Positions 5,433 to 57,200 of a DNA stretch of 64,000 bases are shown here, one piece after another (position 1 is the stretch's first letter; the number at the start of each line of letters is the position of its first letter). The translations under genes and the position numbers were made by a program. Under the pieces are notes generated by a model. That model saw only the letters and a list, made by a program, of their open reading frames with translations, ran no database searches and had not been told where the DNA came from. The stretch is from Dillenia suffruticosa (Eukaryota > Streptophyta > Magnoliopsida > Dilleniales > Dilleniaceae), in contig JAVTVX010000012.1 of assembly GCA_033439265.1 (NCBI GenBank), positions 16,874,501 through 16,938,500 of the forward strand, written 5' to 3'.

Positions 5433-5744
5433 AAAGATGGAGGAGGTGAAAAAATGGATAAAGGGAGACAATAGCACGAGAGAAATGCTAGGGAACAGCA
5501 ACAAAAGCAAATCCCATCCTTTGTGCTTCCTCCTCTTCATTGCATTCCTCTCCGCCTTGGCAACATTGTTGAGACCCTCAGATCTTCTCCTCCGCCAAAT
5601 GTCAACTCGATCTTCATGTATGTATCATCTCCTGCATTGATATTTGTTTACTTGTGAAGTACAATTGGGTCTCCAAATTTTGCTTAAACAATTTAAAAAG
5701 CTACAGTGAATTATATTCTTCCAATAGAATGGAATAGGGTTTAT

Positions 5745-9700: not shown

Positions 9701-9968
9701 ATTGCTTACCATGAGAAATGGAAATTTACAATTTTAGATAACATTTCTTCAAGTCCCTATTAAACCATACACATTAACATGACTGTGAGACACTTCCCCT
9801 CCTTACCTTTCCTTCCACCTTAATTCACCTCCATTATCATGCACAGTGTTATTGCTACCAGTCATAACCATGCAATCCAAAAGGTGATGCCACTGTGGAA
9901 TAGTACCCATAATTGGAATATACTTTAGTTACATGGATTATGAAGTATCTTTATGCTTTGTGAACCAT

Positions 9969-10005
9969 CTCTCTCTCTCTCTCTCCCTCCTCCTCCCTCC
10001 CTCCC
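9969..10005 (+). repeat. CT/CCT-rich microsatellite
   Basis: A (CT)n run followed by CCTCCCT repeats. The matching site in copy B (37724-37769) is an uninterrupted (CT) run of about 23 units. The length difference is between paralogous introns. Confidence 0.9.
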
Positions 10006-29654: not shown

Positions 29655-32600
29655 TTCCTTTCCCCTTAAAAAATTTCATCCTTGAAATTCATATCTCATC
29701 TTCAAATTCCCATATGGCATTTTCTATTTCATGGTTGCTCCAAAGTACTTTTACCAGATGTACTTCCTTTGATCTATGCTTCTTTATATCAAATTCTAAG
29801 ATCTTGACCGGTTTTTCCTCATAAGTTAGATCTTGGCGAAGTTGGAGTGGTTAGTAGCCTACTATATGATCTGATCAGGTTGATACTTTCAAAATAAATG
29901 ATACATGGAGTACATCATGGATTCTAGATAAAGTTGGTGGCAAGGCTAAACGATATACAATTTTTGCAATCTGTTCCAGTATTTCAAATGGTTCAATATA
30001 CTTCGGGCTTAATTTTCCCCCTTTTGCATGCTGGATTATTCCTTTTTGGGGGGATACTTGGTCAGCATAACTCTTTTGTCTATTTTGTGCAGCCATCATT
30101 ATTTGTTTGATCACTTTGACTTTGTTAAGGGTTTCTTCCATCCATGGTATGGTACTTGATGTATTTTTTTCTCCAATTCTATCCCAATAGATTAGTGATC
30201 AACATTTTCTTCTATATAATACCTCATAGGGAGTTATACCAATCATGGATTGAAAACTATTATTGTATGCAAATTCAATAAGTAGTAAATGTTTATCCCA
30301 ACTTCCTTTGAAATCCAATACACATGCTCGAAACATATCTTTTAATATTTGAATAGTGAGTTTAGATTGTCCATCAATCTAAGAATGAAAACTTGTGCTA
30401 AATTTTAACTTAGTACCTAAAAGTTGTTGTAGTTATTTCCAAAATCGAGAAATAAATCTTGGATCTCTGTCAGAAATAATACTAAGAGGTACTCCATGCA
30501 ATTTAACTATGTCATCCACATATTCTATCCCGAAATAAGTCATCATAAAAAAAGTGAGAAGATTTGGTGAACATATCCACAATTACCCATATCGCATCAT
30601 ATTCATTTTACCCTTTGGTAATGCACAAACAAAGTCCATAGTTAGTTCATCCAACTTCCATTCTGGAACTTGTAAGGGTTGCAGCAAGCCAAATGGTTTT
30701 TTGTGTTCTGTTTGACAAATTAAGCATATGAAAACATATTTCGCAATATTATTCTACCACTAATATTCTTTCAAATCTTTGTACATTTTAGTTCTTGTAC
30801 AGTGGAAAATATATTTCGAGCAATGTGCTTCCTCCAATATTTCTCTTCATAAAACCTTTATCAGGTACACATCCTATCTTGAAATTTTAGTATTCTATCT
30901 ACAGTTTCTTAGAAATTTGAAAACTGGTTTTCTCTAGCTTTTTCTTTGAGCTTTCATAGTGCTTGGTCTTGGTCTTGAGAAATCTTAATTCTTGAATACA
31001 ATTCTACATGAATTCTCATAATGGCAAAATTAATCCCTAAATGAATTTTAATAAACTCCCAATAGGCCAATTGCTTTAACATCTCCCATCCTTTTAACCT
31101 CAATTTTGCTATCTTCACCTTTTTGCTAAGGGCATCTGTGTCTACTTTGGCCTTACCTAGTTGGCAACTAATTGTATAATCATAATCCCTTAGGTACTCT
31201 ACCCATCTTCTTTGCCTTGAGTTAAGTTCTTTTTAAGAGGATAAATACTTTAAATTCTTATGATCTATGAATAACTCAAAAGTTACCTCACATAAATAAT
31301 CTCTCCACTTTTTGAGTGCAAATATTGTAATAGCTAACTCTAAATCATCAGTAAAATAATTTTGCTTATAAGGCTTTAATTGCCTCGATGTACATGCTAT
31401 AACCTTTACTTTTGCATTAATACACAACCTAAACTTCTTTTGATGCATCAGTATAAACCTCAAATCCATCATTTCCTTTGGATAAGGCAAGTATTGGAGG
31501 CATAGTTGGTCTTTTCTTCAATTCAAGGAAAATTCTTTCACATTCATTGTTCTAATCAAACTTAGTATTCTTCCGAGTTAACTTTGTCAAGGTTCCAGCT
31601 AGTTTCGAAAATTTTTTCATAAAACTTCTATAATAACTAACTAGTCCTAGGAAATTTCATATCTCAGTTACCGTCCCTGGTGTTTTTCATGACAAAATGA
31701 ATTTTATCTTAGAAGGATCAACAGAAATTCTCTCTACATATATTACGTGACCAAGAAAAGTAATTTTTTCTAACCAAAATTTACATTTGCTAAATTTGAC
31801 ATACAATTTATTTTCTCTAACAGTTTATAACACATAATGTAAATTTTCTCTGTGCCTTTCTTCTGATTTTGAATATACTAATATATCTTCTATAAAAATC
31901 ACTACAAAACGATCAATATATTGATAAAATACCCTAACATTAAGTCCACGAAGGCAGCTGGTGGACTAGTTGATCCGAAAGGCATGATCATAAATTAATA
32001 ATGACCATATCAAGTCCTAGAGGCTATCTTAGCTATGTCCTCTTGTCTAATCCTCAATTGATAATATCCCTATTTTGGATTAACTTAGTAAAGATTTTAG
32101 CACTTGTAACTGATCAAACAAACCATTTATCAAAGGCAAGGGATATTTATTCTTTATTGTGATATTGTTTAATTCTCGATAATTAATACACAATTGTAAT
32201 GAACCAACTTTTTCTTGACAAATAACATGAGATCTTCTCATGGTGATACACTCGGTCGAAGAAACCCTCTTCCAAGTAAATCTTACAATTGTACTTTAAG
32301 TTCTTTTAATTCTAGATGGGTCATTCTATATGGGGTCTTTCATATTTGTTCCACTCCTGAAACAAGATTTATACTGAATTTAACCTTAATATCTAGAACC
32401 ATTACCCAATTAGGAGCAATAAATGAATGTGTAATACCTTAACCTTATGATTATTGAATAGTAGCATACCTTCTACGACATTTGATACTTCAGGAATTTC
32501 CTCTCCTTCCATGGCAAAAACTCTACTTTGAATCTGGGATTTATTATTCTGATTGCTCTGTTTTTTACCTTGAGATATGCTTCTTTTTCCTATTATTCTG

Positions 32601-33747: not shown

Positions 33748-35246
33748 TGTCAAGCCCCCTCTTGCTAGAGCTTTATCGACGACGGACTGCCTAGTTCTCA
33801 CCATGGTTTAGTAACGGAACTTTTATACTAGAGAGGTTATCCATAATAAAATTATTTCTATCCGTTAATCCTCCTCGACTTTTGTTCCTACATAATCTAA
33901 AAATAATTTTCTGTGTGAGCTTAATAATCCAGTAAAGTCCGTGTGTGCATGTGTAAAATATTTATTATAAAATTATATGATAATGACCATAATGTAAAAT
34001 CTTTTTGAGAAACCTTTCTATACAGCAATAACATACATATTTGATTAATAACAATAATACAATACAATATAAATAATAGTTTACTTTCATCTTATCTCTC
34101 TATAAGAACAATCATCTTATCCCTCCCAGGAAGTCCATTTCCGGAAAGGCCTATCAGTCTTCTCCGCATTAAGTGGACAAACCTCCTATCCATAATAATG
34201 AGATGCTACCAGTATGTATTTTGACGTTCGACAAAACCCTTACTTGCTCGAACTATCTCCACATATATTGACTTATATAACAATCACAAACATATACACT
34301 TATGTAGTAGTAGTAGTAGTAGTAGAAAATTATTGTAATAGTAGTAAATCATGATAGCAGTAGAAAATTATGGTAGTTATGTATAAAATTATATGAATAC
34401 AAAGAATACTCACTTTCAAGAGTTGTGTTAATCAGGGGTTCAATCAATTGACTCTTTTTCTTGAGGCACACCACTTTCTTTTTCTTTCATTTTCTTTTCT
34501 TTCTCTTTTTCTCTCTCCTCTCCTTTCTCTTTCTTTCCCTCCTTCTCTCTTTCCCCTCTCATGGCCAAATTGGTTTGGGGATGGAAGGGGGTATTTATAA
34601 CTATTAGGATGTATGATGAGTCAGCAATTGGGTGCGTACGATGACGACACGTGGCAAGGGATTTGACACGTGTATGAATATGTGTCATACGGTGGCATGT
34701 GGACAACATATGTGATAACACGTCAATGGCGGTGGAACGAAGATAAGGATGTAAGTTTAGGTTTTAGGTGTCCAAGTTCGATGTACTTTCAACCAGGTCA
34801 TAGAATATTCATGCATCCAGCACTTGGTACTTATTTACTTAAGAATTACATGTAAATAAGGAAATATCTCTATTTAGATTTAATAAAAATAATTTCAAAA
34901 TCTATTTTTTTTATAACAAAATGTCAACTTTTACTTCAAACAACAAAAAGTCGAAACGGTTAATTTTATTGGACTTTATTTGGAGGGCTAATGATTTTAA
35001 AAAAAATTCTAAAAAAAATATGTTTTAACTTATTTGATATATAAGAAACAATTACCGGAATTTTTCTTTATTGATTTCTAAACATTTTATATAACTCTTT
35101 TTTGTAGTATTTAGTTTCAAACAAAAACTTGATTTCTCAATATTCTACGTGTTTAATTTTGTACCAAATTTTCATATTTTAGATAATATTCTTATCTTAT
35201 TATTAATTATAAATAATTTCTTATAACTAAATTAGGGTATATGATA
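33748..35246 (-). repeat. 5' LTR of the minus-strand gypsy element
   Basis: About 1499 bp, starting tgtcaagcc and ending gggtatatgata. It includes a (GTA)n run at 34302-34324 that is not matched in the other LTR. Confidence 0.85.
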
Positions 35247-36225
35247 TACCTCTACTTATTAGCACGATGTTGCATGTGAGGTAATCCACGGGTGGCGGAA
35301 TCAAACTAGGAGTTGAATAAATTTTGAACTATTAAGATGATTTGGCATGCAAAGCTAAGTTTGTAACTCAGTGTAAAGACACATGTTAGTACAAGATGTT
35401 AACATGTGTTGGACAGGTGCTCGATTTGATCAGAAATAAACAACCAACGTCAAAGGATGAATTTTCATTTCAAATCAATGATCAAAATTATTTCATAGTT
35501 TTAAAATTATTTGTTTTTTTAATTATTTTGTCCAAATCAAGGTTTCATCAAAAACTATTTTTTCTAAAATTTATAAATTACTACTAATATTATATATATG
35601 TATACTATTTTCAAAATTAATATCAGAATTTTTATTTTCATTTTTGAGAAAAATAAGGTTATAGTTTTTATAAGGTTAGCCTATTATAAGTAAAGTTTTA
35701 AAATGTAGGCTTACATTGATTGTGCAACACTCAATTACCTATTATTCTTATTGAAGTGAGAAAAAAATGTAATATAAATATTAAACATATGACATTATGG
35801 AAATATATCCAAAATAATTTTAATCGATATTCTAAAATTAGCATGATTAGTGTTAAAAATTTTCGACAACATATTTCTATAGCCATGGCTTTTATTGAGA
35901 CGACAAGAAGGACAATAATGAAAAAGATAGTTCATGCAAATATTTGTTTTGTTTCCTTTCTTAATATTTAACATAAAAATAAAATTATATATCATAGTCT
36001 TTATTTCTAATGATTTTAGGAAAAAATTATGTTTTTAATATAATTTTATTCTCAAATTTTTATTTTTTTTAAAAAAATTTATAAATTTAAAATTATATAA
36101 TAAGAATTATTCTTTACTTATAATTACTAAATAAATTAACTGGAAAAAAAAAAAAAAGGCACCAATTCTTCCGCGTCGATTCTTCCTCCTTCGGGTCCTT
36201 CCCCCTCCCGCCAAAAGGAGGAAGG
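35247..36225. other. AT-rich spacer upstream of XRCC2 copy B
   Basis: No supported gene. The last 80 bases before the XRCC2 start are GC-richer (cttccgcgtcgattcttcc) and look like a former 5' leader. They do not match the DNA upstream of copy A, where MULE-1 sits. Confidence 0.5.
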
Positions 36226-37720
36226 ATGGAAGAGGTGAAAGAAAGGATAAACGGAGACGAGGGCGCGAGCAAATCCCATCCTTTGTGCTTCCTCCTCTTC
36301 ATCGGATTCCTCTCCGCCTCGGCAGCGTTGTTGAGATCCTCGGACCTTCTCCCTCCGCCAAATCCCAACTCCTTCTTCACTCTCGTGCATTGATATTCCT
36401 CCAACTGTGAAGTGCAATTATGTCTCTAAATTTTTACTTGGAATAATCTAAAAGGCTGCAATGAACAGTATTCGTCCAGAAGAGTGAAATGGGCTCTGTT
36501 ATGGAGGGTTGGAACAGCTGGTTATGTTTCTCGACTTTGATGGCGGATTTGACATCCTACGCGTTTCCCAATTCCTCAAGCTTCGTATTGCCCAAGCTTC
36601 AGGTGACTTTTCTTTCTCCGCCTCTGCACCTTAATCATTCACATTTCCGTAGGAATCAAAGTTAGATTAAGTTTTGAGGGGAAAAGTGTAAGGACAGGTT
36701 TGATCTTTATGCACTTACTCATCACGAAATCCCTAGACCTATGTTTATTTTGTTTCAATTGAAAAGGATCATAAATGTATACCAACCCTTAGAAAATAAT
36801 AACAAGTCAACACAAGGAGGCACAACTTGGCTGTTGTGTACTCAGTAGCTTCCTTCAGAGGAGTAGGTTTGAGTTTTAGTGACTATGATCTTTTAGTGAT
36901 AGTGTGGGGGAGAGTTACCTCTTCTGTATAACCTAAATCCATTGGTCTCCTAATGAATAACAAAAATAATTGTGGCAAGTCTTCAAATTTGAGGTGTTTT
37001 GAATTGGGATGATTTATTTATTTATTCATCTTTTTAGGGGTGTAGGAGGGTATGATGAATGCTTCACTGGATCACTCTTATCCCAAAGGAATTATGTTCT
37101 AGATCACAAGATCAGAATTGTTGTTTCATTGCAATAGATTGCTCGAGTAGGTCAGACTTTACTTTAGCATGAAATAGCAATCCAAACAGTCATCTAAGCC
37201 TATCTTCCATTGAAGTATTTTTCTCGGGGATGATTGTGGGGTGGTGAGCGCTCCTTTGGATCACTTTAACTGCAGAGGAATTACGTTCTAGTTAGTGAGA
37301 TTGAGATCATAGTTACATTGCAATCTAGATTGCTAAATAAACCCATGGGGGGAAACATGTAAACTGCCCAGAATAGTAGGTTGAAGTTAACTTTAGCTTG
37401 AAACAGCTATCCATTGATCAGTGTATCCCCCATACACTGCATATTCATTGCTTTCCATGACAAATGCAAGTTTAGAATTTTAGATAACATTTTTCCAAGT
37501 CCCATTCTCTTATTTAACAAAACACATTAACATGATTGTGAGACTCTTCCCCTCCTTGCCTTTCCTTCCACCTTAATTCACCACTGTTATCATGCACACT
37601 GTTACTGCTACCAGTCATAACCATGTAATCCCAAAGGTGATGCCACTATAGAATAGTACCCATAATTGAAATATACTTTACTTACATGGACTATGAAGTA
37701 TCTTTATGCTTTGTGAACCA

Positions 37721-37723
<3 letters not shown>

Positions 37724-37769
<46 letters not shown>
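37724..37769 (+). repeat. (CT)n microsatellite, about 23 units, in XRCC2 copy B intron 2
   Basis: A perfect CT run followed by a short G run. The same intronic position in copy A has a shorter, imperfect run. Confidence 0.95.
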
Positions 37770-37772
<3 letters not shown>

Positions 37773-38569
37773 GGGGGGGGGGGAGTGGCATGTTCAATCA
37801 TTTTTTTTTCCTTTCTATTTGGATGGTGGGTGGGGAAGGGATGTCATGTACACTTTGTGAAGTGCATCAGTGAGAATACCAAATTTAAAATAGCCATTAA
37901 TTTAGACATCCCCCCCCCAACTGATTGCCGTCTCTTCATGGACGAGTGTGTTGTGTGTATTCAGCTTAAAACATTGGCCATAAAATTGCTCACGTGATCC
38001 CTTCTTCCTCTCTTTCTCCTTATAGTTCAATAATAAGTTGCTTAAATGCCAAATCAAGATGTGGGAATTAAACCACGCCATCGCTCTTGTTTTGAATAGA
38101 TATGCATGGGTTCTGTGAGTTGTCATGCCGTAACATAAACTATTGCCTTTTGATCATGATCTTTGGTATGATTTTATGTTTATGATCTTAATTTATGAGT
38201 AGAACATGATATTCTTTTCCAGGGTATCAAGTTATGAGTACAAATTTGTTGAAGCTTGATAATTTGGGTCCAGGATTAAGCAATGAAGACAATCAACACT
38301 CAATTGCTAATAATGTGTTGAACTATGATATCAGGAAGGAATCAAGTACTGCTTTTTGCATCATGCATGAGAAGATTCTTGTACATCTGATGTTATGATA
38401 CTTTAGAGTTCCTTGCCACAATCAAGGTATGGGAGTTTTTCCTAGACCAATGCATGATTGCTAATATTAGCTGGTTAGTCTTTTTGGTTCAAAATCTTGT
38501 AGGTTTGAAATAGAGGTGTTGAGATATAAAACGTGCTTGAACTTTTGGAGTAAATGGTTCTTTGACAAA

Positions 38570-38750
38570 ATTAAGATCATATCGCAGCTGGTCGTGAGTT
38601 CAAATGGTAACAAACTCATTTGTACACCCCTTTAATATTCCACTTCACATTATACCCAATATGTGAGGGGGAGTGCTAAAATATAAAACAGAAATAGGAA
38701 AATTTACCTCACGTCACAAGCTTAAGTTTTTGGAATAAATGACGTGTCAC
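38570..38750 (+). mobile_element. SINE-like tRNA-derived repeat in XRCC2 intron 3
   Basis: A box B-like ggtcgtgagttcaaatg sits near its start. It is followed by the phrase tgtgagggggagtgctaaaa and later acaagcttaagtttttgg, a combination that I recall as a common dispersed repeat in plant genomes. Similar short words flank it: acaaaattaag (about 38559) and acaaaatttaag (about 38750), a likely target duplication. There is no poly(A) tail. The corresponding part of copy A is missing, so presence or absence there is uninformative. Confidence 0.5.
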
Positions 38751-41700
38751 AAAATTTAAGAGAGGTGGGATGTATGGTTATTTTTGTAGATCCATTAATG
38801 CCATGTTTGCTATCAAAGCACAACCAACTTACAAGGATAAAAGTGCCATTAAGCTGAATATTAAAGGAAGCTAGTGTTTTTTAAATCTTTATATAGCAGG
38901 CCTGCCAATTTAGCATTCTGCAAGGTTCCCTTAAAGCATGGACAAAATTGTGCTATATGCACATGACTAGATGATTTCTCCATAATATGGAAAATTTTCT
39001 GATGTAAGATCTGGCATGGAAAAAATATACATTAACGTCGTTGTAGATATGTAAGATTTTTCTCAATTCAATATTTCTTCCTCAAATGGTTCCAACATTT
39101 GGTGGTTGCTATGTAAACAATGAATACAATAAATAAGAAATGCAACAGCATGAACTGTGGTAATCCTTTTGATCAGGAACTAGTACAATCTGAGGTTCAC
39201 CTTAAGTATCTTTCTAATTTTATGATAAATAATTCAAATGATTGAGTTACTTGCCACAAGGATATATGAAAAACAAAATCAGTATGCTAATTTGACTATA
39301 ATAAAACAAAATAACATATCAACAATCTAGCATGCTTGTATTTTTAGCTAAAATATAAGCATATATGAGTTTAAAACTAAAATATATGTATGACTACATA
39401 AAGAACGTAGTTTGGCCACTGCCTTATACTGCATAAGCCATCATGTATTAATCAGTCATGGATCCTAGTCCTATCTGGTATTTAAGAATAACAAAACATG
39501 AATGCATGCCCTCTCAAAGATACAACAACATTTGACTTCAACACAGAGTATATGGATGTGGCCTCTCTTTTCCAGTATCCAGTCTTGGCTTAGAGAAGGA
39601 TGTTGTTAAGTAAGCATGGCATTGTAAATTTAGTTCTACCATGATTACAGCTAAAAATCTAACCTGAAGGATTTCTTTGACATATTCGAGCACCCATAAA
39701 TTTCATAGGATTAAAATAACACCAGAAGAGATCTGGATAAACTTGCTATCCAAGTGTGCTAGTTTTATTTCAGGTCACTGGTAGAGGAATCCAATAAAAT
39801 ATCATGACTGGCTGAGCAGTCTTTATATGGCCTGTGTTGGCATGTCTTTTTATTTCCTTTGACATTCTTACTTGTATTGAATGAAAATGCCAGATTATCT
39901 GTAATACTCTTAAGACCTAATAACACCTAAACATGGGCTGAGCCCATTGGTCATCCAAGATGAATTTAGATTTTGGCTGGTGGTGTATCTGGTGTTCAAA
40001 TCACCCATTCCCCCCTTCCCCATCCACTTTGAGTGAGACAAAAAACCATGTGTTAAATGAATTCAAATTCCTTTATTCCTCTTCCTGCGTATTGAGCTTG
40101 CATTGAGTTCGCATCAATTTCGGTTCCGATGCTTTATTTATTTATTTTTTTTCCTTTTGTGAATATGAAAATGCTGCTGGAGTTAATTTCACAATTTATT
40201 GGAACTGTACTTATCTCTCTATCTTGTACTTTGATAACAGACTCTGCATTATCAACATCGAAAGCAAAGATAATCACCTGGTGTTACTGTCCATTTCCTC
40301 ATCATTGACAGGTTGGCTTAAGATTTCTACATTTTTGTGTCACTTTTTGCTATTTAAATAGAAGCTTCAGTGAAGAACAATGTAGAACCCTCTACCTTGC
40401 TTTTTAGATTTATATGGCTTGTGTAACCTTTGGATTGTTGATACCTAATCTACATGCAATTACATTCCAATTGTTAAGCATCTTAGTCTTGAACCAGGCA
40501 AAACATTAGTACCAGATGCTGCTATCATAACAACTACTGCCTGCATAGAATTGTTCACAAAATGTGAGAAATCAAAATTTAAAGTCCATGGAATTGTTAG
40601 TGTTCATAGGGTAATATCTGACCACACTAGACATGCCAACTAAATGGCAGATGGCAAGATCTGGCGCAACCCTCCTTGTTGATTTGACATACGAGTTTGC
40701 TGAGGGCGTTCGGCAAGAACAATAGGCACAAGCACTCCCTCAGGATGACCCTTCATATCACCCTCGCTGATCTTAAAAAGGGCCCGGATGCCAAAGAATC
40801 CTCAAAACTTCACTGCGTGACATGATAGACTATTGTGCTTTCAGGGCTTTTCTAGAGCCTGAAGGCTTTTGTATCCTTGATGTGTTGCACAGTTTACCTT
40901 TTCCCACTTGAATAACAGAAACTGAGTAGCCTGGATGCCACATTGAGTAGGGTTGGCCAGTTTGGCCAGATTCCTCCAATATTAGTAGTTTTAAAATTGA
41001 GCAAATCATTTTAACTGTAGAAAATTAGGGGGGAAAAAGCCAAATTACTTAATTTTTCCTATGATTTTCCAGTTATATTATGGCATTGTTTGGTCACCAG
41101 AAAGATAAAACCTCCAAACTTGTCAGGAAATTGCAATCTTCAACTCACAACAACAGTGGTCACAATGGATTGAAGAGAAGATGGAGAGATGGAGTTAGTT
41201 TCCTGATAGATCTGGGAAAAAAAAAAGAAAAGAAAAGAAAAAAAAAAGTCCAAAATTGTAGTGATTTTGCAAGTGAACCCTAAACTAGGCCGCTTTTTTT
41301 TTTCTCTCTCTCTCTTTAAATTGAATCGCAAGCCTCCCAGATTTCTTAAAAACCATAAATGATGAGCCAATTTACTTCAGTATTAAGGTGGTTCATTTGG
41401 TTTTTGGTTTATTTGTTCTTCCACTAGTCTACATATATTCTTAGAGATCATTAACTTTCATAGTGGAATTGGCTTGAGAGGATGAGAGGGATGGTTTTAC
41501 ATGGATGCTTTTTACATTGTATGGTCCTATAGAGTAAGAGAAGAAGAGGATTCTATAGCAGAAGTTGTTGAAGGTTAAAGGTAGATGGAGGCATGCATGG
41601 TTCATTGGTGGGCATCAACATGTGCTTTATCCTTGTGCAAGAAGTTTAAGGCGGGCAGATGGGGTTTTTGCTAGTCAGTTTCTAGACTTCATAATTGAGA

Positions 41701-42920
41701 ATGGGTTAATTGATGTTCCTACTCTTGGAGTGTGTTTTACGTGGTCAAGTCCTAAGGGAAAACCTGTGTTTGTCCAGATTGCACAAGTTCTTTGTTTCAA
41801 GAGATTAGGATGATCATTTACCTAGTGGTATGTAAAAAGTGCTCCCCCAGTTGACTTCATATCACCATTGAGGTTTTTAAATGTGTGGTCACAAGAGGAA
41901 GGATTTAAGGGGATGATTGAGATATAGTGGGGGCAAGGGGATGTAGTTGGCCATGTGATGCATAATACACTTGGGATCTTTTGTTTCTTTTTTGGTACCA
42001 TCTTTTAATTTTGTTGTGGGTCTTAGAGGGCAAAAGTGAGTCAATTCAATAGGATTTTGTGGGCCTTGTCTAGTTTAAGTGGGCTTTATCAACAGTTATT
42101 AAAATCTGTTGGTTCATTGTATCCTTAGTCATGAAATACATCATTGGCCTTTGCTTGGGCCTCATTAGGGATTCTATTTAAGGATCTAATGGCTTCACTT
42201 AGAAGGAGGGGGAGCAAATGGAAGAATAGAGTAAGAAGCCTAGTGCTTCAGTACTACTTGTGATTGCCTTCCTTCTACTGAGTGATCCCTTGAAACCTTA
42301 GGTATGATTTCCTGGGAATAATGCTATTTTGTGATCCTTTTATCCTCTATACAAGTGCTGTCTTGAAAGACCCTGCATCAGAATTGGTATCAGAGCATGG
42401 ATAGAATGATGCCTGCATGATCAAGAAGGCTTTTCAGAGGAAGACTGAGGCTGAAAGGGATGATTTGATGTTGAGGACTCTTGACAAATTAAAGGGCCTA
42501 AAGTGTCGGGTGGAAGAATTAACAATTTTTTTGGAGGTACTGATGTTAAAGTTTGCACATCCTAAAAACAGTTCCACCAAGATCAATGGTGGAAAGCCTC
42601 TAAAGTGCATTTGGATGAGCAGAAAGTTGCTGCAGAAAAAGATCAGCAACCAGACGAGCCAACATATGTGAAGTAAAGGCTGCCACTCAAGGAGATTTTA
42701 TGCTGTACACTATGATCTGCTACTGGAACATCCTGCAGACACAGTGAGGGTGGGAGAACAGATGATGCAGTTAATGGGAAAGAGTACAGGTCACCAAGTC
42801 AGCTGCCAAACACAAATCAGCACATGGAAAAGAAGACAGGTGTAGCTGTTGAGGAAAAACCACTCGAATTGATTCTCATGAGCGAGTTTATGTAAGAAGT
42901 AAGGAAAAGAAGAGACACAT

Positions 42921-43693
42921 TGATGAGATCATCAAGATTGCAAGGAATTCACAAGACCCAACTCAAGTCCTAGTTGGGCCGGTGACAAAGGCCCGAGTTA
43001 AAAGATTCAAAGAAGCATTGAACAACTTAATTCAGGGAGCTTTACAACAAGAAATTGGAGACCAAATAAATATAGAACCAAAAGGGGCCTTAATTATGCT
43101 TATACAAGCCCAATTGGAAGAATAAAAGGCCCAAAACTACCCAAGACCAAGGGAGGACGAAAATGAAGAAAAATAGCTGCAAGACTTGGTCAAAGTAGTT
43201 TGATTTATTTAGTTTCCTAATTTTTATTTTTTTTGTAACTTATGTTTAGTTTCCTAATTCTTTATTGTTTAGAGAGTTTCTAAATTTTTAGTTGTCAATT
43301 ATGTGTTTACCTTTAGGCTATAAATAGGCCATTATACGTTGTGTAAAACAACATTTTTGAGAGAATTAATAAAATTGTGAGGATTCTTCACACAGGTCTT
43401 GTTCTTTTGAGAACTTTGAACTTATTCAAGATATGAGTCTTGTTTAGTTCTTTGACCTATCAATCTAGATTTCGAACCATCTAGATTGTGGCGTCATTCA
43501 TTCCATCTTTATACCAAGGTTCTTGATCTAGTGAGAAACGGGTCTAAGGTCATATACCTTAGATTCTTCCTCCTTTAGGGCAAGGGTTGAGGTTTTTAAT
43601 TCCACCGGTTCAAATAATTCGTTGGGACGATTTTTGGACTAAATTAACTTATTCGTGGGTTCTAGGGTTTTTATACCCAACGGGTTCACATCA
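42921..43693 (+). repeat. 5' LTR of the young gypsy element
   Basis: 773 bp. A TATA box (TATAAATA, 43319-43326) lies in the downstream half, followed by an aattaataaaattgtg polyadenylation-like word. The first 200 bases are coding-like because the family's last frame runs into the LTR. Confidence 0.93.
43319..43326 (+). promoter_or_regulatory. LTR TATA box (TATAAATA)
   Basis: The sequence ggctataaataggcc is conserved at the same offset in the 3' LTR (49349-49356), which fits the core promoter of the element. Confidence 0.6.
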
Positions 43694-43848
43694 GTTGGTA
43701 TCAAAGCAATCCAGGTTTTTTTTTCTTCTTTCGAATTATTCTTATTTAATTTTTTTTTTCTTTTTTGTCTGAAAACTCTTCATTCGTTGGTTTATTTCTT
43801 ATTTTTGGTATACTTATTCTTTATTTTTGAACTGTCATATTTCCCAAA

Positions 43849-43908
43849 AAAAAAAAAAAAAAAGAAGGGCCAAAAAAAAAAAGAGAAGAGGCCGTGAAAA
43901 AAAAAAGG
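43849..43908 (+). repeat. A-rich tracts in the gypsy leader
   Basis: Three runs of 8 or more adenines, separated by gaagggcc, gagaagaggccgtg and similar, lie between the primer site and gag. They leave low-complexity lysine-rich frames that are not genes. Confidence 0.7.
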
Positions 43909-46900
43909 GGACAGTTTTCAAACTTTGCAAAATTGATAATTCTCCATTTTGTGATTTTGTTTAAATTTGGCAAATTTTAAAGTGTTATTGCCAAATTTGA
44001 ATTAGAATTTTCTAAATTTTTTTTTGTTGAGTTTGAAATATTTCCTTATTTGTACACTTACCCAAATTCAAACCTTCCATATTTGTTATCCTTTCATGAA
44101 CGACTTCCTTATTTATTCACCTTCCTTATTTATCTCATTCCTTGGTTGTTTCCTTTCTTATTTAGAAATTTCTTTTTAAATTTACTACTTTTCTTATTCC
44201 TTATTTTTCTCTTTTCTTCTTACTTTTCTTGTTATACTTTCTTCTATATAAGTCATTGAATTTCAAAAGACAATTATTTTTGAGTTGAGTTCTCAAGTTC
44301 AATAAAGAACTTGACTAAGTGAAGTAGAGTGGTAAAAGGCAAGAGAGAATTCATTAAAAATAAAAGCCAAATACATAGAGTGAAACACGAGTGGATTTGA
44401 GTGAATCATTATTTTTGAGTGAAATACGTGAGGGAGTGTGGTGAGTTTCTTTCCTATTGTATTCTAACATTGTCTTGCAGATTTCAATCATGACTCAAAA
44501 TCATAAAGATAACATAAGTGAGGAGGTTCAACCACAAGTTGGGTCGAATCTACAACTACAAGCATTTATGGGGGAGATGAGACGGATGATGAAGAGAGAG
44601 TTAGATCTTATACATGAAAGGTTGGATAAGGTGGAAGAGGGGTCGCAAAGGGGACAACCATCAATAGTGCCAACCCCCTCCAGGAGGAACAAGATTCATC
44701 AAAGAGAAACTAAAGTTGTGGATGAGTTTGAAGGGGATGGGTTAGAAGAGAAGTTTGATAGGTTGTCAGTGGGTAGTCATAGGAGACTTGGTCGAAATAG
44801 AGAAGTTAATAATGGGGTAGACAACAACTTAGATAGTATCAAGATGAAAATTCCGTCGTTTCAAGATAAAAGTGATCCCAAAACATATCTTGAGTGGGAA
44901 AAGAAGATTGAGTTAGTTTTTGATTGTCACAGCTATTCTGAATTAAAGGAGGTTAAACTTGCTGTTATTGAGTTTACTGATTATGCAATTGTATGGTGGG
45001 ATCAGATGTGTATCAATAGATTACGGAATGGGGATCGACCCATTGAAACTTGGGGTGAGATGAAGAGGGTGATGAGACGACGATTTGTGCCGAGTTATTA
45101 CTATAGAGATTTATATCTCAAGTTACAGAGTCTCCACCAAGGTAATCGAAGCGTAGATGAGTATTACAAAGAGATGGAGATGACTATGATTCGAGCTAAT
45201 GTGGAAGAAGATAGAGAGGCGACGATGGTTAGATTTTTGAATGGTTTAAATCGAGATATTGCCAACACGATCGAGCTTCACCATTATGTGGAGTTGGAGG
45301 ATTTAGTACATATGGCAATCAAGGTTGAAAGGCAGCTCAAAAGAGGTAACACACGACCAAAACCAACACCACAGAATCCGAATGCAACATCTTGGAGAAT
45401 GAGCTACCCAAAAAAAGAAAAAAATTCAGCCATCTCCAGAGTTAAGCCTGAACATAAACCTGTTATCTCCACCACGACTTCTCAAAGTAAGTGACATTGA
45501 TTGTTTGCCTCCATTGGAAGACGTCCCCATCGGAGCTGAGGAGTATGGGGCTGAACATGGTGAGATGTTAACGCTAGTAACATGTCGAGCCTTAAGCTTA
45601 CAAGCCAAAGGAGATGAAGAAGAAGTACAACGGGAGAATATCTTTCACACTCATTGCCATGTGAAAGACAAGATATGCATTTTGATCATTGATGGTGGTA
45701 GTTTTACTAATGTTGCGAGTAAGACTTTAGTAGAAAAGCTGAATTTGACAACCACTAAACATTCTCAACCATACAAGCTACAATGGTTGAATGATAGTGG
45801 AGAAGTGAGGGTTACAAAACAAGTTGTTGTACCATTCCGGATTGGGAAATATGAAGATGAGGTGTTATGTGATGTGGTGCCAATGCATGCTGGGCATATT
45901 TTGTTAGGAAGGCCTTGGCAATTTGATCGACATGTGCAACATGACGGCTTCACCAACAAATATTCATTCATGTTCAACCAACGAAAAATCACTTTAATTC
46001 CGATGACACCAAAGCAAGTCTATGAAGACCGAGTGAGGTTGCAAAAATTGAGTGAGCAACAGAAACAAAAAGATCAAAATGGGTTGAGAGAAGAGAAAAA
46101 AGAGAGAAAAGAAGAGAGAAAGGCCAAATTTGATGAGAAAGAGAAAAGAGAGGAAAGTTCGGCCGATGAGGTAAAATCCGAGAGAAAACAAAAGAATTTT
46201 TATGTCAAAACAAGTGAGGTTAAGCGAGCGATACTCTCAAGACGGCCACTGATTGTACTTATGTACAAGGAATTCCTTTTAAACACTGACCAACTTAACC
46301 CTTCTTTGCCGAGTGTTATTGTTTCTCTTTTGCAGGAGTTCAAAGATGTGTTTCCTGAAGAGCTACCCCAAGGTTTGCCACCTATCCGAGGGATTGAACA
46401 TCAAATTGATTTCATACCCGGTGCATCAATTCCAAATCGTCCAGCATATAGAAGCAATCCAGAAGAAGCGAAGGAGCTTCAAAGACAAGTCGAAGAGTTG
46501 ATGGAAAAGGGGCATGTGAGAGAAAGTATGAGTCCATGTATAGTTCCGGTGATTTTGGTACCTAAGAAAGATGGAACATGGAGGATGTGTGTTGACTGCC
46601 GAGCCATCAACAATATAACGGTAAGATATCGACACCCTATTCCTCGTTTAGATGACATGTTAGATGAGTTGCATGGTGCTTGTGTGTTTTCTAAAATTGA
46701 TCTTAAGAGTGGATATCATCAAATACGAATGAAAGAAGGAGATGAATGGAAAACAACTTTTAAAACTAAATATGGGTTGTATGAGTGGTTAGTTATGCCC
46801 TTTGGATTAATCAATGCTCCTAGTACATTCATGCACTTAATGAATCATGTTTTGCGTGCTTTTATTGATAAATTCGTTGTTGTTTATTTTGATGATATTT

Positions 46901-48949
46901 TGATATATAGCAAAAATTTGCATGATCATGTCTCACATTTGCATTCGGTTTTGGATGTACTTAGAAAAGAAAATTTATATGCTAATCTCAAAAAGTGTAC
47001 CTTCTGCACCGACAAACTTGTTTTTTTGGGTTTTGTTGTGAGTGTTAAAGGCATCGAGATAGATGAAGAGAAGATCAAAGCCATCCAAGAATGGCCAACC
47101 CCCTCCAATATAGGTAATGTTAGAAGTTTTCATGGTCTTGCTAGTTTTTACTGGAGATTCGTGAAAGATTTTAGCACTATCGCTGCACCGCTTACACAAG
47201 TCATCAAGAAAAACGTTGCATTGCATTTCAATGGAGTGAAGAGCAAGAGAAGGCGTTTCAACTTATTAAACATAAGCTTACTCATGCACCTTTACTTGCT
47301 TTACCGAACTTTTCTAAAACATTTGAAATTGAATGTGATGCTTCTGGTGTAGGTATAGGCACTGTTCTTATGCAGGATGAAAGACCACTTGCATACTTTA
47401 ACGAGAAGTTAAGCGGGGCTGCACTTAACTATCCTACCTATGACAAAGAATTATACGCCTTGGTTCGAGTTTTGGAGACATGGCAACACTATTTGTGGCC
47501 GAAAGAATTTGTGATTCGTACGGATCATGAATCCTTGAAACATTTGAAAAGTCAACATAAGCTAAATAAGAGACATGCTCGATGGATGGAATTTATCGAA
47601 ACTTTTCCTTATGTCATTCGATATAAACAAGGTAAGGAGAATGCAGTTGCGGATGCACTTTCACGCAGGTATGCCTTAATCTCTACTCTTGATGCTAAAT
47701 TTCTTGGTTTTGAGTATATTAAAGAACTTTATCATGATAACCATGATTTTGGAGAAATTTATAGTGCATGTTAAAAGTCAGCAGAGGGCAAATTCTATAG
47801 GCATGAGAACTTTTTGTTTAGAGAAAATAAGTTGTGCTTGCCGAATTGTTCATTGAGAGAGTTGTTAGTTCAAGAATCTCATAGCGGAGGGTTAATGGGA
47901 CATTTTGGAGTTGCTAAAACCTTGGCAATTTTACAAGAGCACTTTTATTGGCCACACATGAAGCGAGACATTGAGAGATTTTGTGGTAGATGTATTACCT
48001 GTAGGCAAGGTAAATCTAAGGTTCAACCTAATGGTCTTTACACACCCCTACCTATTCCTAGTTCACCTTGGATTGACATTTCAATGGATTTTGTTTTGGG
48101 TTTACCTAAGAATAAATATGGACGAGATTCGATCTTTGTAGTTGTAGATCGATTTTCTAAGATGGCTCATTTTATTCCTTGTCATAAATCTGACAATGTT
48201 TCTCATATTGCGAAATTATTCTTTAGGGAAATTGTGAGGTTACATGGGATGCCTAAAACAATCGTTTCAGATCGGGATACTAAGTTCCTGAGTTATTTTT
48301 GGAAGACATTATGGGGAAAGTTAGGAACGAAACTTTTATTTTCTACAACTTGTCATCCTCAAACTGATGGTCAAACAGAAGTAGTCAACAGAACTTTATC
48401 CACTTTGTTGAGAGCTGTCATTGGTAAAAATATTAAAATTTGGGAAGAATGTTTGCCACATGTTGAGTTTGTATATAATCGTGCTGTTCACTCTACTACT
48501 AAATTCTCATCGTTTGAAATTGTTTATGGTTTTAATCCTTTAACTCCTTTGGATTTCTTACCTTTACCTATTTCTGAGCAAGTGAATTTAGATGGTAAGA
48601 GAAAAGCAGAATTTGTGAAACAACTTCACGAGAAAGTACGGTTCAATATAGAGAGGAGGACTGAACAATATATCAAACAAGCTAATAAGGGACGTCACAA
48701 GTTGATTTTTGAACCCGGTGATTGCGTTTGGTTACACATGCGGAAGGAAAGATTTCCGGCACAGAGACGTTCCAAGTTGTTGCCTCGAGGAGATGGTCCT
48801 TTTCAAGTGTTAGAACGGATCAACGACAATGCTTACAAACTTGATTTACCAGGTGAGTATCATGTTAGTGCTACTTTCAATATTACTGACTTGAGTCCTT
48901 TTGATGTAGGTGACGATTTGAGAACAAATCCTTCTCAAGAGGAGGGGAA

Positions 48950-49722
48950 TGATGAGATCATCAAGATTGCAATGAATTCACGAGACCCAACTCAAGTCCT
49001 AGTTGGGCCGGTGACAAAGGCCCGAGTTAAAAGATTCAAAGAAACACTGAATAACTTAATTCAGGGAGCTTTACAACAAGAAATTGGAGGCCAAATAAAT
49101 ATAAAACCTAAAGGGGCCTTAATTATGCTTATACAAGCCCAATTGGAAGAATAAAAGGCCCAAAACTACCCAAAACCAAGGAAGGACGAAAATGAAGAAA
49201 AATATCTGCAAGACTTGGTCAAAATAGTTTGATTTATTTAGTTTCCTAATTTTTATTTTTTTTGTAACTTATGTTTAGTTTCCTAATTCTTTATTGTTTA
49301 GAGAGTTTCTAAATTTTTAGTTGCCAATTATGTTTTTACCTTTAAGCTATAAATAGGCCATTATACATTGTGTAAAACAACACTTTTGAGAGAATTAATA
49401 AAATTGTGAGAATTCTTCACACAGGTCTTGTTCTTTTGAGAACTTTGAACTTATTCAAGGTATGAGTCTTGTTTAGTTCTTTGACTTATCAATCTAGATT
49501 TCGAACCATCTAAATTGTGGCGTCATTCATTCCATCTTTATACCAAGATTCTTGATCTAGTGAGAAACGGGTCTAAGGTCATATACCTTAGGTTCTTCCT
49601 CCTTTAGGGCAAGGGTTGAGGTTTTTAATTCCACCGGTTCAAATAATTCGTTGGGATGATTTTTGGGCTAAATTAACTTGTTCGTGGGTTCTAAGATTTT
49701 TATACCCAACAGGTTCACATCA
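48950..49722 (+). repeat. 3' LTR of the young gypsy element
   Basis: 773 bp, same length as the 5' LTR. The frame that carries integrase continues into it for about 200 bases, with [19 protein letters not shown] and [20 protein letters not shown], ending at about 49154. Such a tail inside the LTR is known in plant gypsy families. Confidence 0.93.
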
Positions 49723-50483
49723 CACATGGTATTACAGCTGAAAAAACTGTAAAAGTACATTGGGGTCGGTGTATAGAAATGCCTAAGCAAGTGGCTGAAC
49801 GATTTCTCTTATATAGCACATGATGACTTAACCCTGTGATTTGCAACCAGTGCAGAACTCAACACACAAGTCATTTGGTTCTAGGCGCAAAGTTATGAAG
49901 TTTACTAGCCCATATAACTAAACAAGGGAAGAAAGTGAATTTCAAGTTTACGATCAAGTTGAAAACATTGTAAACAACAATATTACACATTTTGGCAAGT
50001 ACGGATGATATTTAGTGAAATGGAAGATGAAACTGTGGTTAGATTCTATGCAAATTCAAGATGAACCTCATGGATCAAGATTGTGGTCTCTACAAGAGGT
50101 ACTGAATCAACTCATCAGAGCGAGTTTTCCCAAATGGGAGAGAGTCGATGCAAATACAATCATGTCTTTTGTTTCTTCAACAGCACAATTATTGTAATAT
50201 TGTATTTTGGGCCTTGGTGGGCAGAGAATGGTCAGTCTAATTGGATTTTTTCGGCTTTGTATCAGTTTAAGTAGGCTCTATCTAGGATTTGTTAAAATGT
50301 CTAAATTTGCTTACGGTATAAGTAGGAGTGTATAGAAGATGTAATAGTGTCATTTGGAAAAATATGGAGAGAATGGAAGAGTATAGTGAGAAGCCTGGTG
50401 CTTTGGGAAGTGCGATTGCCTTCTTTCTAGTGAGTAATTCCTAGAAACCCAAGGTGTGATTGTCTAAAACTATTGCTATTTTG

Positions 50484-51178
50484 CTAGGAAGCACAAATGC
50501 TTTAACATGTAAGCTATATCTGCATTCAACACGTATCAAATATGATATTCCAAGAATGCTCACCAGCTACTTTTCTAATACTCCATGTGGCTTATCCATT
50601 TTTTTCATTATTATTTTTTTAAACACCTCATATATGTGAGATACTTGATAGATGCCTCTTAGATAGGTATCAATTTTTTGATGAGTAGTTCACATGAATC
50701 CTTTAACAACACTAATGTTTGCAAACGACATGTACAATTTTATTTACGTATTATTTGATTAGACAATATGAAGAAAGAAAAAACCATAATTGTTATACGT
50801 ACTTGTTATATATCATTATCATAAATTTTTAAATATCTAAATAACTAATTTCCCTAAATTAAACTGATTGTTATAAAACATTTGGTTTTATTATTTCAAA
50901 CCCATAATCTCGTATTTTAGTTTTTGGAAACTTGCTATGTCAATATATTCATATCATCTTAGATACTAGTATCCCTATCCATGATTCTTTTTTTTATGAA
51001 GTTTGAGATATTTAAAATTAAAATATATATAATGTTAACAAATATTATTAATATGAATTAAAACAAAAAGAAAAATACAGTACTCTGATATCCCTATGTC
51101 CATGTTTTTTGAAAATCTGTCATATTTCCATATTTTTGTCATGCTAGAACAATTGGATATTGTACACATGCTTACTAG
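50484..51178. mobile_element. AT-rich insertion of about 695 bp in the 3' LTR, possibly a MITE
   Basis: Alignment with the 5' LTR (gctattttg then tgatccttt) shows extra DNA here. Its ends, ctaggaagca and the reverse complement ctagtaagca, form a 10-bp inverted match with one difference. There is no clear target duplication and no coding content. Confidence 0.35.
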
Positions 51179-53110
51179 CTAATTCTGATCCTTTATTCTC
51201 TATAAAAGTGCTGTTTTGAAAGATCCTAAGTCACCGTACTAGTGAAAATCTTCTTGTCAAATTGAAGGAACTGAACAACCATTTTAAAATACAGAATAAT
51301 GATTCTTTTGGATATGTTATGGCTAACAGAGGGTAACCACCCCTTGCCCCTCTTGTCTTCGCCCATGCTTGGTGGCATAGCCTTCTTTCGGCTTTGAGAG
51401 TTTTTGGCTTTGAGAGTGTAATGGTAAGGCACCTTCTCTGCATGGTTTTATGATTGAGTCCTTTAATGAGTACCGTGGTGCCTTAACTGACTGGTACTCA
51501 TACCAAAAAAGCAAGATGCCTCTAATATCAGAGATTTTAGGCCTATTAGCTTGGTGGGAAGTGTGTATAGACTTTTGATAGGTCTTGATGTTGCTCTTAC
51601 TGCTAAAAGAATCTGATGAAAACATGGGAGGAGTGATGATGTTATCTTCTTTCTGCTTCATTTCTAGGAGTGGGAAAGGGTCTGTTCTTGGAGCAAAGCA
51701 TAAAGATGAGGCTATTTGGAAAAGGATCTTGGAAAAATTCAGGAAAAGGTGGCAGGGACGTAGAAAAGAGGTATCTCTGTAAAGGAGTGGGGCCTACTCT
51801 GATCAGGAACATCCTTTCAAATCTCCCTGTGTATTTCATGTTTCTTTTTCCTAAGGCTAAAGGTGAGAAGTTTGGTGTGGTTAAATGCGAGGTTGTAAAA
51901 CGCCCTTTACAATAAGGGAGTCTTGGCCTTAGATCTTTGGTATAATTCAATGAAGCATTGTTAAGGAAATGGTTGTGGAAGCTGTTAATAGAGCACATAT
52001 CTTTTTCCAAGGAGGCGATCGTAGCTATGTCTGGTACAAGTCGAAATGAATACTCTTATGAGGTGGTTGGGTGTTTTTGGCTGTGGAAGAAAATCAGGTG
52101 ACGGTGGGTTGCTTTCATGGATAAGGTGCATTTTGAAGTGCGCAGTGGTGCGACAATTTATTTCCAGCTTGATGCATGGTCTGGCTCGTGTTCTTTGAAG
52201 ATTTGCTTCCTGCATTAATGCTTGAGGGGTTGGAGTTGGATTGTGGAAGGGAAGAGGATGTGGTACTGAGGGGCTTCATAACAGGAACTTCTGAGTTCAA
52301 GGGATTCGGTACTGTGCTCAAATCTGTTAAAGGGAATGGGAGATCATCTTTTCTTTTAAAGTGTATTTGAGTTTCCTTCACTCTCCTCAGGGTTGGCTTC
52401 TTTTTTTTTTTTTTTTCCTAAAAAAAAAAAATTACGTGGGAGTTTGTTTGAGTCATTGTTCTGGTAATAGAGGTGTTCTATGCAAAGGAGAGCATGAGAC
52501 AGCATATCATTTGCTGCCCTAGGACTTGCATACTATGGGGAAGATTTTCTCTCTTTGCATATTTTTTGGGTGACTGCAAACTCTGTACAAAATGAGTTAT
52601 GGACTTGGAGTGGTTTGAATGGTATGTGTTGAAAATAATAGAATTAATAGAGTAGTTAATAGAGTGTTGGAGATAAAAATGTAATTAATTTGGTCTACTG
52701 AAAATAGGAGAAAACAATTACTCTTTTAGGAATATGAAAGTCATCATACATAATTAGAAATTAATGCTCAAAGAAAATTGGTGCACTCATTCTCTGTATC
52801 TATATTTGTGCTGAGTGCTAGCCTTTGAAGCCATCTTTCAGAAACTATTTAATAATGCAACCACTTCTCTATGAGACCTCTCAAGTCAATTGAGTCATAA
52901 CTACGTTGCTTCTCCTTTTTCAAGAGTATGTTTGGCAAGGAGAAGTCTTTAGGGTTCTTCGTCTACTTGTGTTTTGGATAGTTTGCAGGGAACAAAATAA
53001 GAGGAATTCTGTAGGGGTAGGGAAATCCTTTTTGAGATTTAAATGTTTGCATTTTTGGATTTTTTGAAGCCCTCAAGTCCTTTGTTAGAGTCATTGTACT
53101 TGTTGTTTTG

Positions 53111-54247
53111 GTGGGTTTGCATCACATTAGTGCTCCTTCCTTTTTGAAGTTTCTTTTTCTTTTCTTTTCTTTTTTTTTTTTGTTGTTGTGAATTTACCTA
53201 TTTGTTAAAGAAAAAGATGGCTTGAGAAAAATGTGTCAGTTATTGTGGAAAGGGACAAGACCAGAATATTAGAGTCCAAATCATTCTATCAGGACTATGG
53301 GATGCCTGAAAGGTTTAATCAAGAATAATAAAGAGGTTAGCTCAAAAGTTCTTCTATTAATTTTGATTGTGAGTAAAATGAGAGCACCCGGATCCTTGTG
53401 GGAAGCAGAGGAGCATTATGCAAGGAAGGAACATTATGCAGCCTAAGAAACAGAGTGGACTAAAAAGTAAATATTAGAGCCATTTTCCCACTTTATAATG
53501 AACATAAAGGAAAGAAATGTGAGTAAATGATTGGCGAACTTCCATAGACTCAGATGAGTATTCGACGTCACTGCCTTGGTTTCCCACCCATTCCCTTGAA
53601 CTGGAGGCAATACTTGCCCTAAACGACCTTATTTAGCTCACACATGTCTGCTCTTTTCTCTCTCTCTCTCTCTCTACCAGGATAAACAAACTCAGAGACC
53701 ACCCTTTCTTTCCTTCATACCATATGCTTATTCTTTGCTGCCACATCTTGACCTAGGATGCTTTATTCTCTTCATCTGTTTGTCTCTATTGCCATCCTAG
53801 GATTGTCATCTTAGGATACTTGCATGACCACAATTACCTCATGTGGCGTACCAGTGGCATGTTGAGATCTTAATGCTTGTCAGCTCCTTCTGGGAAGATG
53901 AAAACCAGACGTTCAAGATTTTGATCTGAAGATCTTAAGATGGCTAATGGCGTGTTGGATTCTATTTTTCCCACACTCGAGAGAGAAGTTGACAGTCCAA
54001 TTCCATGATTTTTCGTCCTAGACAGTTGGATGCTTAATGACAGATAGCTCCTTCTGAATCTGTCCCCGATACGAGGTGAATGAAATAAGTGCAAAAGGCA
54101 TCATTTTGATGGCATATGTAATGGATATTGCTTCTTTTTACACCAGGCATGCTATTTCACACCTAGATCAGTTTTGAGCTGATTTATTTAATGGCTTTAT
54201 TATCAAGTGAGCTAGTGACATGTCAAGTTTTTCCTTTTTCTTTGCAG
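53111..54247. other. Remainder of XRCC2 copy B intron 4
   Basis: No conserved protein or RNA. It includes T-rich runs (53158-53180) and a (TC)n run (53657-53674). It ends in the acceptor ctttgcag before exon 5. Confidence 0.5.
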
Positions 54248-57200
54248 CATTGGAGCTTTGTATTGGCTTGATCGTGCTTCAACATCCTTGCCCCAAGAAG
54301 TAAGCAGCAGGTGGGTACTGGATATATATTTCTGGTGCCAATGACTATTTGATTGTTATTGTACATAGTTAGAGAGCAGTAATGAGATTCCCTCACCTAG
54401 TAATAAAATTCCCTCTACTATGTTGGGTTTATTAAAACGTAGTCAATGGTTACAGTACAAACAATTTTTCTAGCAGCTATGGAACAAGACTTGCACATAA
54501 TTGTATACACTCTCAACACTCCCAAGCTTGTTACAGATGTACTCACTGATCGATACATATTGTTGCCTAATGTATGGTCTACACTGGCTCACCCATTCAG
54601 AGGGGGGCCTTGTTCTGTAATGACTTTTAGGACTGTTGCAAATAAGAAAGTAAAATGATCCTTTGGAAGAAAGTTTGGTTGCTATTAGGTGGCTACATTG
54701 GTAGGTTGTTTAAAAATCGAAATGTGGGAATGACGTTCTCAACTGGGGAGCAATGGGTTGGCACGGGCAATGTATTGCACCACTCTATTTGCAATCAATA
54801 CTTTTCTGCAATACTTACATTCACATTTATAGTACTGCTCATCTTCTAATCAACTGATGGGTTCCCCAAGAAAAATCACCAATAGCTAGCAGTTAGATGC
54901 ACATATTGAAAAGATTCCTCAACTTGAAGCATGGTATAAGCACTTTTTGTGCCATTACAGTGGTAAATTCAAACAGACACAATGCCCATATTATACTGAT
55001 TAAAATTATGTGTTGCCTTGGATGTTAAATCACATACGAATCATATTAAGGGTTAATAAGTAACTAATTCAGATGGTATAATAATCTTTTAATGGTTCTC
55101 ATCTATTTGTAATACAGGAAATTCATTTCTCTTCAAAGTGTTTGAGAGTCTATTGTTCAGGAGCTTCAGAAGCTTCTGTTGGTGCATCCCATTCTTATAT
55201 TAGCTTCAAGGACAATTGTATTAGCAAATGAGGATGCCAGTAGTGGGGTCAGGAGGTGAGCCAACTGCTATGGTTCTTGCTGTTCAGATGCAATATGAAG
55301 GGGATCAAAGAGATACCCATGCACTTACCTAACGTGAGTGTGTGGAGTACCAGTATCTCTTTACTTATTTCTTAATCATTTTCTATTTTATTCACTTGCA
55401 ATGTAGACGTAGAAAAGAGAGTTAGAGAGATAATATATGAAACGGTCTTAAATTGCATGATGCCCTTGCAGAAAACTTTCAAGACGTTATCATATACTAT
55501 GATTTTGGTGGAAAGAATGATGCAGAGCACCATTGGGTTGTGCTGAGATGACAACTGTGTTGAATGACAGGATGTTCTATATTTGCTTCTCTAAATTAGC
55601 CTAATTCGGGATAAGAATGTACCATTAATTTATTGTTTGCAGTGACTCCAATGGATACTATTTCAGACACCAGCATAGGAAACTAATCGGATCCAAACTA
55701 TAGCACTTGACTAGTATCATTCTCAGCACCAAAGCAAAAGGTTACACTACTAGACACATTTTTGCAGGGTTCATTCATATTGAAGTTTTTGCACTCCATT
55801 CCTGTGTGGCATAACCAATGCAAGGTTTTTGACCTCAAGTGTTTATGCATGCACGATTTCAACTATTAAACTAGTTTTTATGAAATCTTTTTTTTTTTTC
55901 CTGCAGCATTTCCAAAGAATGCTTACTGGCTGATCTTTTGTCTTTCAAAACTGCTAAAAGTGGTTCCTCACTTCCTTTCCACAAGTATTTGCCACCTGTT
56001 TGGCAGGTAATCATTTTACTTCTTTCCTAAACATGTTCCTCATGTTGACTTCTACAAGACCTTGGCTATATGACATTGAAGATCTTGGTTCTATAAATGT
56101 TATGAGGCTTTGATGGACTTGTGTTTGTAATGTTGAGCTTCTGATGTCTAATTGTTGGTCTATGATCTTGATGTTTATGTACAAATTTGGTTGTTTTGCT
56201 GTTGTGCCAATGGGTTGCTCGTTTCTTCATGCATCAGTCATCACATTTCCTTGGGAACAGAAAAAAGGAAGGAAAAGTTAAGATGGCCCATGTAAATTAT
56301 CATCTTTGCACTGAAATGTAACATTTCCTTCAATACATAAGGCGAAAAACACGAGTATGTTATGTGATATGATTGTATAACCTGGCACTAATAATGATTA
56401 AATGATTTGGAGAGGAATTAATGTTGGAAAGTGGAGCAGAAGAGCTGAAAGGGAAGTGTATCTTGAAATCCTGAACAGAGAATTTTGATTATTTTTCAAT
56501 TCCCTAGAAATAAAACAAATTTATCATTTTCATAGTTGCCTATGCCAATCTTAGAGTTCTCACTAAATGCAAGACACAAGTGCATGAGTGCCAAAATATG
56601 GGAACTACTCCAGAATCCGTACTGATAGGTCAACTCATTACTCTTTTAGATTTTTCAAAAACAATATTCCCAATGCTCATTATTTTTGAAAAATTAACTG
56701 CCCCAAGCTTTTCTAAGAAGAGAGAAAATTTCAACCATAAATGTTGGCCAACATATCCATTGTTTTGGTGGGCATTTCTTGTTCTAATTCAATTATTTCT
56801 CACTCACTTAACCTTTTTGGTTGTAGTCCTTTGCGACACACAGGATACTACTGGCTTAAGTTTCGGGTTTGTGAACTATCAGACTTGAAATGTAGGCCCC
56901 TTTCCAGGTGCTTGCATTCTTTCAAACTGAACATTTGTTTAAATTTTTATCCTCAGAGATGATCTTACGGTGGACCAGCATGTAAAGCACTCAATCTTTT
57001 TATTTAAATGGTTGCTTCCGCCATTATATTATGTCGACAAATTTGCTGTTGGAAAAGTGAAAATGCAGATTATCAGTGTCTTGTTGAAGACCACTTTCTT
57101 GAATGCTAACCTATTCTTGTTGGTTTTCTATTTTCTCTATTGTCATCTCTACCTTCAGGTTGGTCTCTTCATGATCACTTGAAGTGGCTTTAAGGTGATG

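Follow-up and report, generated by a model that had tools for sequence, protein, structure and literature searches.

An unprocessed XRCC2 pseudogene in Dillenia suffruticosa and a candidate working copy on another contig

XRCC2 remnants and transposons in the window

The window analyzed here is a stretch of 64,000 nucleotides from Dillenia suffruticosa (C12:16874501-16938500), within an assembly of 596 Mb and 37 contigs. It contains remnants of XRCC2, a RAD51 paralog and DNA-repair gene, at two places on the forward strand, referred to as copy A (5437-11194) and copy B (36226-57109). Two further copies, C and D, are located on contig C27. Copy B was aligned to copy D and possesses the same nine exons. 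Exon 1 is a remnant (36226-36380) with a 28-nt deletion, and its splice donor has been lost. Exon 2 (36455-36602) contains one in-frame stop, and exon 3 (38274-38426) contains an 8-nt deletion and one stop. One stop is also present in each of exon 4 (40241-40311), exon 6 (55118-55255), and exon 8 (56827-56866), and exon 9 (56959-57109) has a 1-nt deletion near the C terminus. Exon 5 (54248-54310) and exon 7 (55907-56006) are open; stops and frame-breaking deletions thus hit seven of the nine exons. Projected onto copy D, the stops fall at codons 72, 152, 175, 218, and 299 in the numbering of that copy. The splice dinucleotides are intact at 15 of 16 positions, the exon-1 donor being the one that is lost. 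Altogether there are nine lesions (five stops, three frame-breaking deletions, and one donor loss), compared to none in copy D. The introns have been retained and the nine exons span about 21 kb. A longer exon 3 was also considered and was dropped, as the CAG/GA acceptor gives an open frame in copy D (other acceptors were judged by eye).

A first-pass annotation of this DNA had described a decayed XRCC2 locus with nine exon remnants in order. The alignment to copy D bears out that order as well as the stops listed for exons 2, 3, 4, 6, and 8, and the peptides that were quoted are found on the forward strand at 38391, 54249, 55164, and 55989. Other parts need correction. The frameshifts in exons 1 and 3 are present, but the one in exon 9 was missing from the list. 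GT/AG borders were described without the loss of the exon-1 donor, and hold for the other 15 intron ends. The locus had been extended to 57182, whereas exon 9 stops 73 bases earlier. The locus had also been called an unprocessed pseudogene, which agrees with its retained introns, its disabled frame, and the related copies elsewhere (A, C, and D). Judged by its sequence, copy B is an unprocessed pseudogene of an ordinary sort, derived from a duplicated XRCC2 gene.

The identification of the locus as XRCC2 likewise stands. When the whole genome was searched with the protein of copy D, pieces of copy B were matched with best E values of 2.9e-18, 9.2e-18, 1.1e-14, and 2.8e-13; thus, the likeness is not due to chance. 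Exon 2 gives a weaker indication. A 33-aa stretch of it had XRCC2 as the top match among PDB sequences, but only at E = 0.023-0.025 (the next match was at 0.32). These matches were to four distinct XRCC2 sequences and covered residues 72-104 of longer chains. With approximate XRCC2 proteins as queries, the exons were matched piecewise in order, and further matches came up near 5.5 and 8.9 kb.

Intron 4 of copy B contains about 10.3 kb (42582-52912) that is absent from copy D, where the corresponding step is about 14 bases. An LTR retrotransposon lies here on the forward strand (42921-49722). Its LTRs are 773 bp long, begin and end with TG..CA, and are 96.2% identical (K2P 0.039), and a 5-bp target duplication, CACAT, is present on both sides. 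In the four open stretches that were scanned against Pfam, gag, RVT_1, RNase H, and integrase scored above the cut-off and protease below it. The element is classified as Ty3/Gypsy by its domain order, LTRs, and target duplication.

Copy A, which is more decayed than copy B, was overlooked in the first-pass annotation. It consists of exon 1, intron 1, a disrupted exon 2, and portions of the introns that follow. Positions 5506-11194 match 36268-39904 of copy B in pieces with 77-82% identity, and the alignment reaches the start codon at 5437. Exon 1 has two 1-nt deletions, and the intron-1 donor that was lost in copy B has been kept. Exons 3-9 appear to be absent; a search of window positions 1-36000 with the copy D protein (E<=5) gave only pieces of exons 1 and 2, apart from three further matches (E 0.24-2.9) that were taken as chance. 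A frame break in exon 1 common to copies A and B, which would date the death of the gene before their split, was considered. It is not claimed here, since the 1 nt missing from copy A and the 28 nt missing from copy B, which cover the same position, fit both one event with an additional 27-nt deletion and two separate events.

Exon 2 of copy A is interrupted by an insertion of 3204 bp with terminal inverted repeats (5747-8950). MULEs are recognized by long terminal inverted repeats and a target duplication of about 9 bp. The inverted ends of the insertion match with a score of 92, whereas 200 shuffles of one end never scored above 53, and a 9-bp target duplication with one mismatch is found at 5738-5746 and 8951-8959. 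By these ends, the insertion is classed as MULE-like. Two related stretches, 4134-5125 and 7639-8589, match in two pieces each with 74% identity, and the second is within the insertion. The bases immediately upstream of the start codon of copy A look similar, by eye, to an end of this MULE-like element. A second MULE-like element may have replaced the promoter of copy A. Additional repeats in the window include a tandem repeat (308-1005 and 1008-1703, 90% identity) and two pairs of direct repeats, 28344-29659 with 33817-35251 (about 80%) and 19766-20940 with 24285-25487 (about 75%).

An unbroken XRCC2 copy on C27

Copy D (C27:9412805-9422577) has nine coding exons, and its frame stays open for 351 codons up to the stop. 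In the model assembled from exon-by-exon alignment, GT/AG is present at all 16 intron ends and the exon phases fit. The first-pass annotation had raised the possibility that XRCC2 was lost from the lineage, should no intact copy turn up, and had pointed to the rest of the assembly as the place to look for one. Copy D is such a copy. There is no sign of XRCC2 loss in the assembly, and the finding is an ordinary one.

Copy C, which lay outside the view of the first-pass annotation, begins at C27:9369139, about 43.7 kb upstream of copy D, with which it forms a tandem pair. Its frame is broken by two stops and by the loss of 1 nt in exon 7. The exon-3 donor has changed, and the exon-6 border is altered with a GT close by. 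On C12, copies A and B are in the same orientation and about 31 kb apart. Thus, three of the four XRCC2 copies (A, B, and C) are broken.

The number of copies was explored with two genome-wide searches. When 575 bases of copy B were used as a DNA query, seven matches were obtained in the assembly, at four places that correspond to copies A, B, C, and D. The protein of copy D had 29 matches at E<=10, with 16 in copies C and D and 10 in copies A and B. The remaining three comprise a single match each on C8 and C2, both confined to exon 9, and another at a different place on C12 with an E value of 1.49. All 27 candidates of the first look were scored in this protein search, a first look that a very decayed copy could escape.

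The protein encoded by copy D matched XRCC2 in PDB with an E value of 1.3e-17. The matches to other paralogs were RAD51C (0.0015), RAD51 homolog 4 (0.041), RAD51 homolog 2 (0.36), and XRCC3 (0.84). Among the RAD51 paralogs, copy D is thus closest to XRCC2, and with XRCC2 as its top PDB match by a wide margin, a different gene family for the locus is ruled out. The score against the Pfam Rad51 profile was 14.6 bits. This is below the cut-off of 22, so the general profile leaves copy D unassigned. Candidate Walker A and Walker B motifs, GPSPSAKS and FLIIDSIGA, are found at the expected places. GPSPSAKS is without a glycine before the lysine and in this departs from the usual Walker A motif, in which glycine precedes lysine. 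An approximate Arabidopsis sequence matched the protein at 47% (159 of 340), which serves as a lead only.

A plant XRCC2 gene is available for comparison by size and counts. In the available part of a report on barley, HvXRCC2 is given as 347 aa and 12 exons, with two introns in the 3'UTR (PMC13293090), compared to 351 aa and nine coding exons for copy D. In its size and in the plan of its exons, copy D thus fits a plant XRCC2, as far as that part of the barley report describes one. Copy B shares the nine exons of copy D but, unlike HvXRCC2 as described there, it is broken by stops and deletions (PMC13293090). Copy D is likely the working XRCC2 of this genome, and it is likely to be expressed and functional. 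In a corrected annotation, copy D on C27 would be the candidate XRCC2, and copies A, B, and C are to be marked as pseudogenes.

Duplication history and constraint

The relationship among the four copies can be seen in intron 2. The K2P distance is 0.161 between copies A and B and 0.056 between copies C and D, and it ranges from 0.215 to 0.230 between the pairs. Where a site divides the four copies into two pairs, A goes with B and C with D at 104 sites, A with C and B with D at three, and A with D and B with C at none. A second, shorter block is noisier, with K2P of 0.147 for A-B, 0.182 for B-C, and 0.263 for A-C, and with copy D poorly aligned (0.305-0.504). It does not have the clean pattern of intron 2 and was not relied upon; the grouping rests on intron 2.

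A comparison of 90 kb around the C/D pair on C27 with the window and its flanks on C12 indicated that the two contigs are colinear, in the same order and with gaps, over window positions 36204-61305, the regions of copies B and D. Colinearity with sequence further downstream on C27 resumes at window-based positions 62667-65608, a stretch that extends beyond the end of the window. The match between copies A and B ends at 11194 and 39904, while the sequence common to copies C and D runs to tens of kb. Barring gene conversion, the intron-2 signal and the colinearity indicate that the C12/C27 duplication came first, and that each side then acquired its own pair. XRCC2 would have been duplicated between the present contigs C12 and C27 within a larger colinear block, and we infer that this was a whole-genome or large segmental duplication. 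Copies A and B on C12 would both have decayed through point mutations, small deletions, and transposon insertions. A later tandem duplication on C27 would have produced copy C, which is broken, and copy D, which is open throughout. Copy B would make no XRCC2 protein and copy D would likely be the working one. We are highly confident that copy B is an unprocessed pseudogene with this history, with A and B decayed, C broken, and D likely working.

A different order of events is possible but rather unlikely. A single tandem duplication could have preceded the C12/C27 split, and gene conversion could then have made A similar to B and C similar to D. Such a history would account for two copies in the same orientation on both contigs, which independent duplications would leave as a coincidence. 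It does not sit well with 104 intron-2 sites against three and zero, nor with an A/B match that stops where it does while the sharing between C and D extends over tens of kb. It concerns only the history and is compatible with copy B as an unprocessed pseudogene and copy D as the likely working gene. There is also little chance that independent tandem duplications on both chromosomes, with every extra copy dead and copy D perhaps relaxed, mark an XRCC2 locus that gains and loses copies time and again and is heading toward loss or replacement.

The preferred reading, with copy D as the likely working gene, can be compared to the constraint on that copy. Pairwise dN/dS is 0.53 for B-D, 0.56 for B-C, and 0.68 for C-D. 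Since the split from copy C, the branch of copy D has had 10 nonsynonymous and five synonymous changes, and that of copy C 14 and four. These counts for the D branch are too small for showing constraint, which is weak at best. The frame of copy D was also explored with 3000 neutral simulations at each of two distances, with substitutions only and indels left out. At K 0.11, approximately the span since the C12/C27 split when half of the distance is taken under an assumed clock, no stop arose by chance in 1.2% of the simulations. At K 0.028, about that of the D-only branch, this was the case in 29%. A plant with no working XRCC2, in which copy D is freshly dead or silent and merely still open, would draw on the three broken copies, on the weak constraint of the latest branch, and on the second of these values. 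It is nevertheless very improbable, given the open frame of copy D with all of its splice dinucleotides, the nine lesions in B against none in D, and the rarity of a stop-free frame at the larger distance. It is harder still to believe that copy B works by way of an unusual exon structure or readthrough, its stops being artefacts or spliced out. Its 15 intact splice dinucleotides and the open exons 5 and 7 would fit, but seven of its nine exons are hit by stops or frame-breaking deletions (five and three in all), which together with the loss of the exon-1 donor leaves this with almost no credibility.

As a pseudogene, copy B resembles the duplicated pseudogenes of other plant genes, in which introns are kept, stops and deletions are scattered, transposons have inserted, and an unbroken paralog is present elsewhere. 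It differs from the typical case only in that there are two copies per contig and three of the four are broken, and not in kind. In the literature searched, as far as titles and the beginnings of abstracts indicate, there was no report of a plant XRCC2 pseudogene. According to the available part of the barley report, XRCC2 mutants are semi-sterile and have a dramatic reduction of crossovers, unlike those of Arabidopsis (PMC13293090). A natural loss of XRCC2 would be notable because of this barley phenotype, as described in that part (PMC13293090).

Exon 9 fragments in a CACTA-like family

The exon 9 matches on C8 and C2 belong to a piece of about 1.05 kb that corresponds to the end of intron 8, exon 9, and the 3' flank of XRCC2. 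These pieces are 96-97% identical to copy D, 93-94% to copy C, and 80-81% to copy B, and each of the two lies within its own copy of a larger repeated block. The first 1.2 kb of this block has at least 46 matches on many contigs, among the 40 of 203 candidates that were scored. A right end was not found for the block that carries exon 9. Its left end contains CACTACAA (C2 copy). The simplest reading would be that a CACTA-type transposon captured a 3' end from the D lineage. With a gene fragment inside a repeated CACTA-like family, a label that is a reading from the left end, the block would be similar to Pack-TYPE CACTA transposons.
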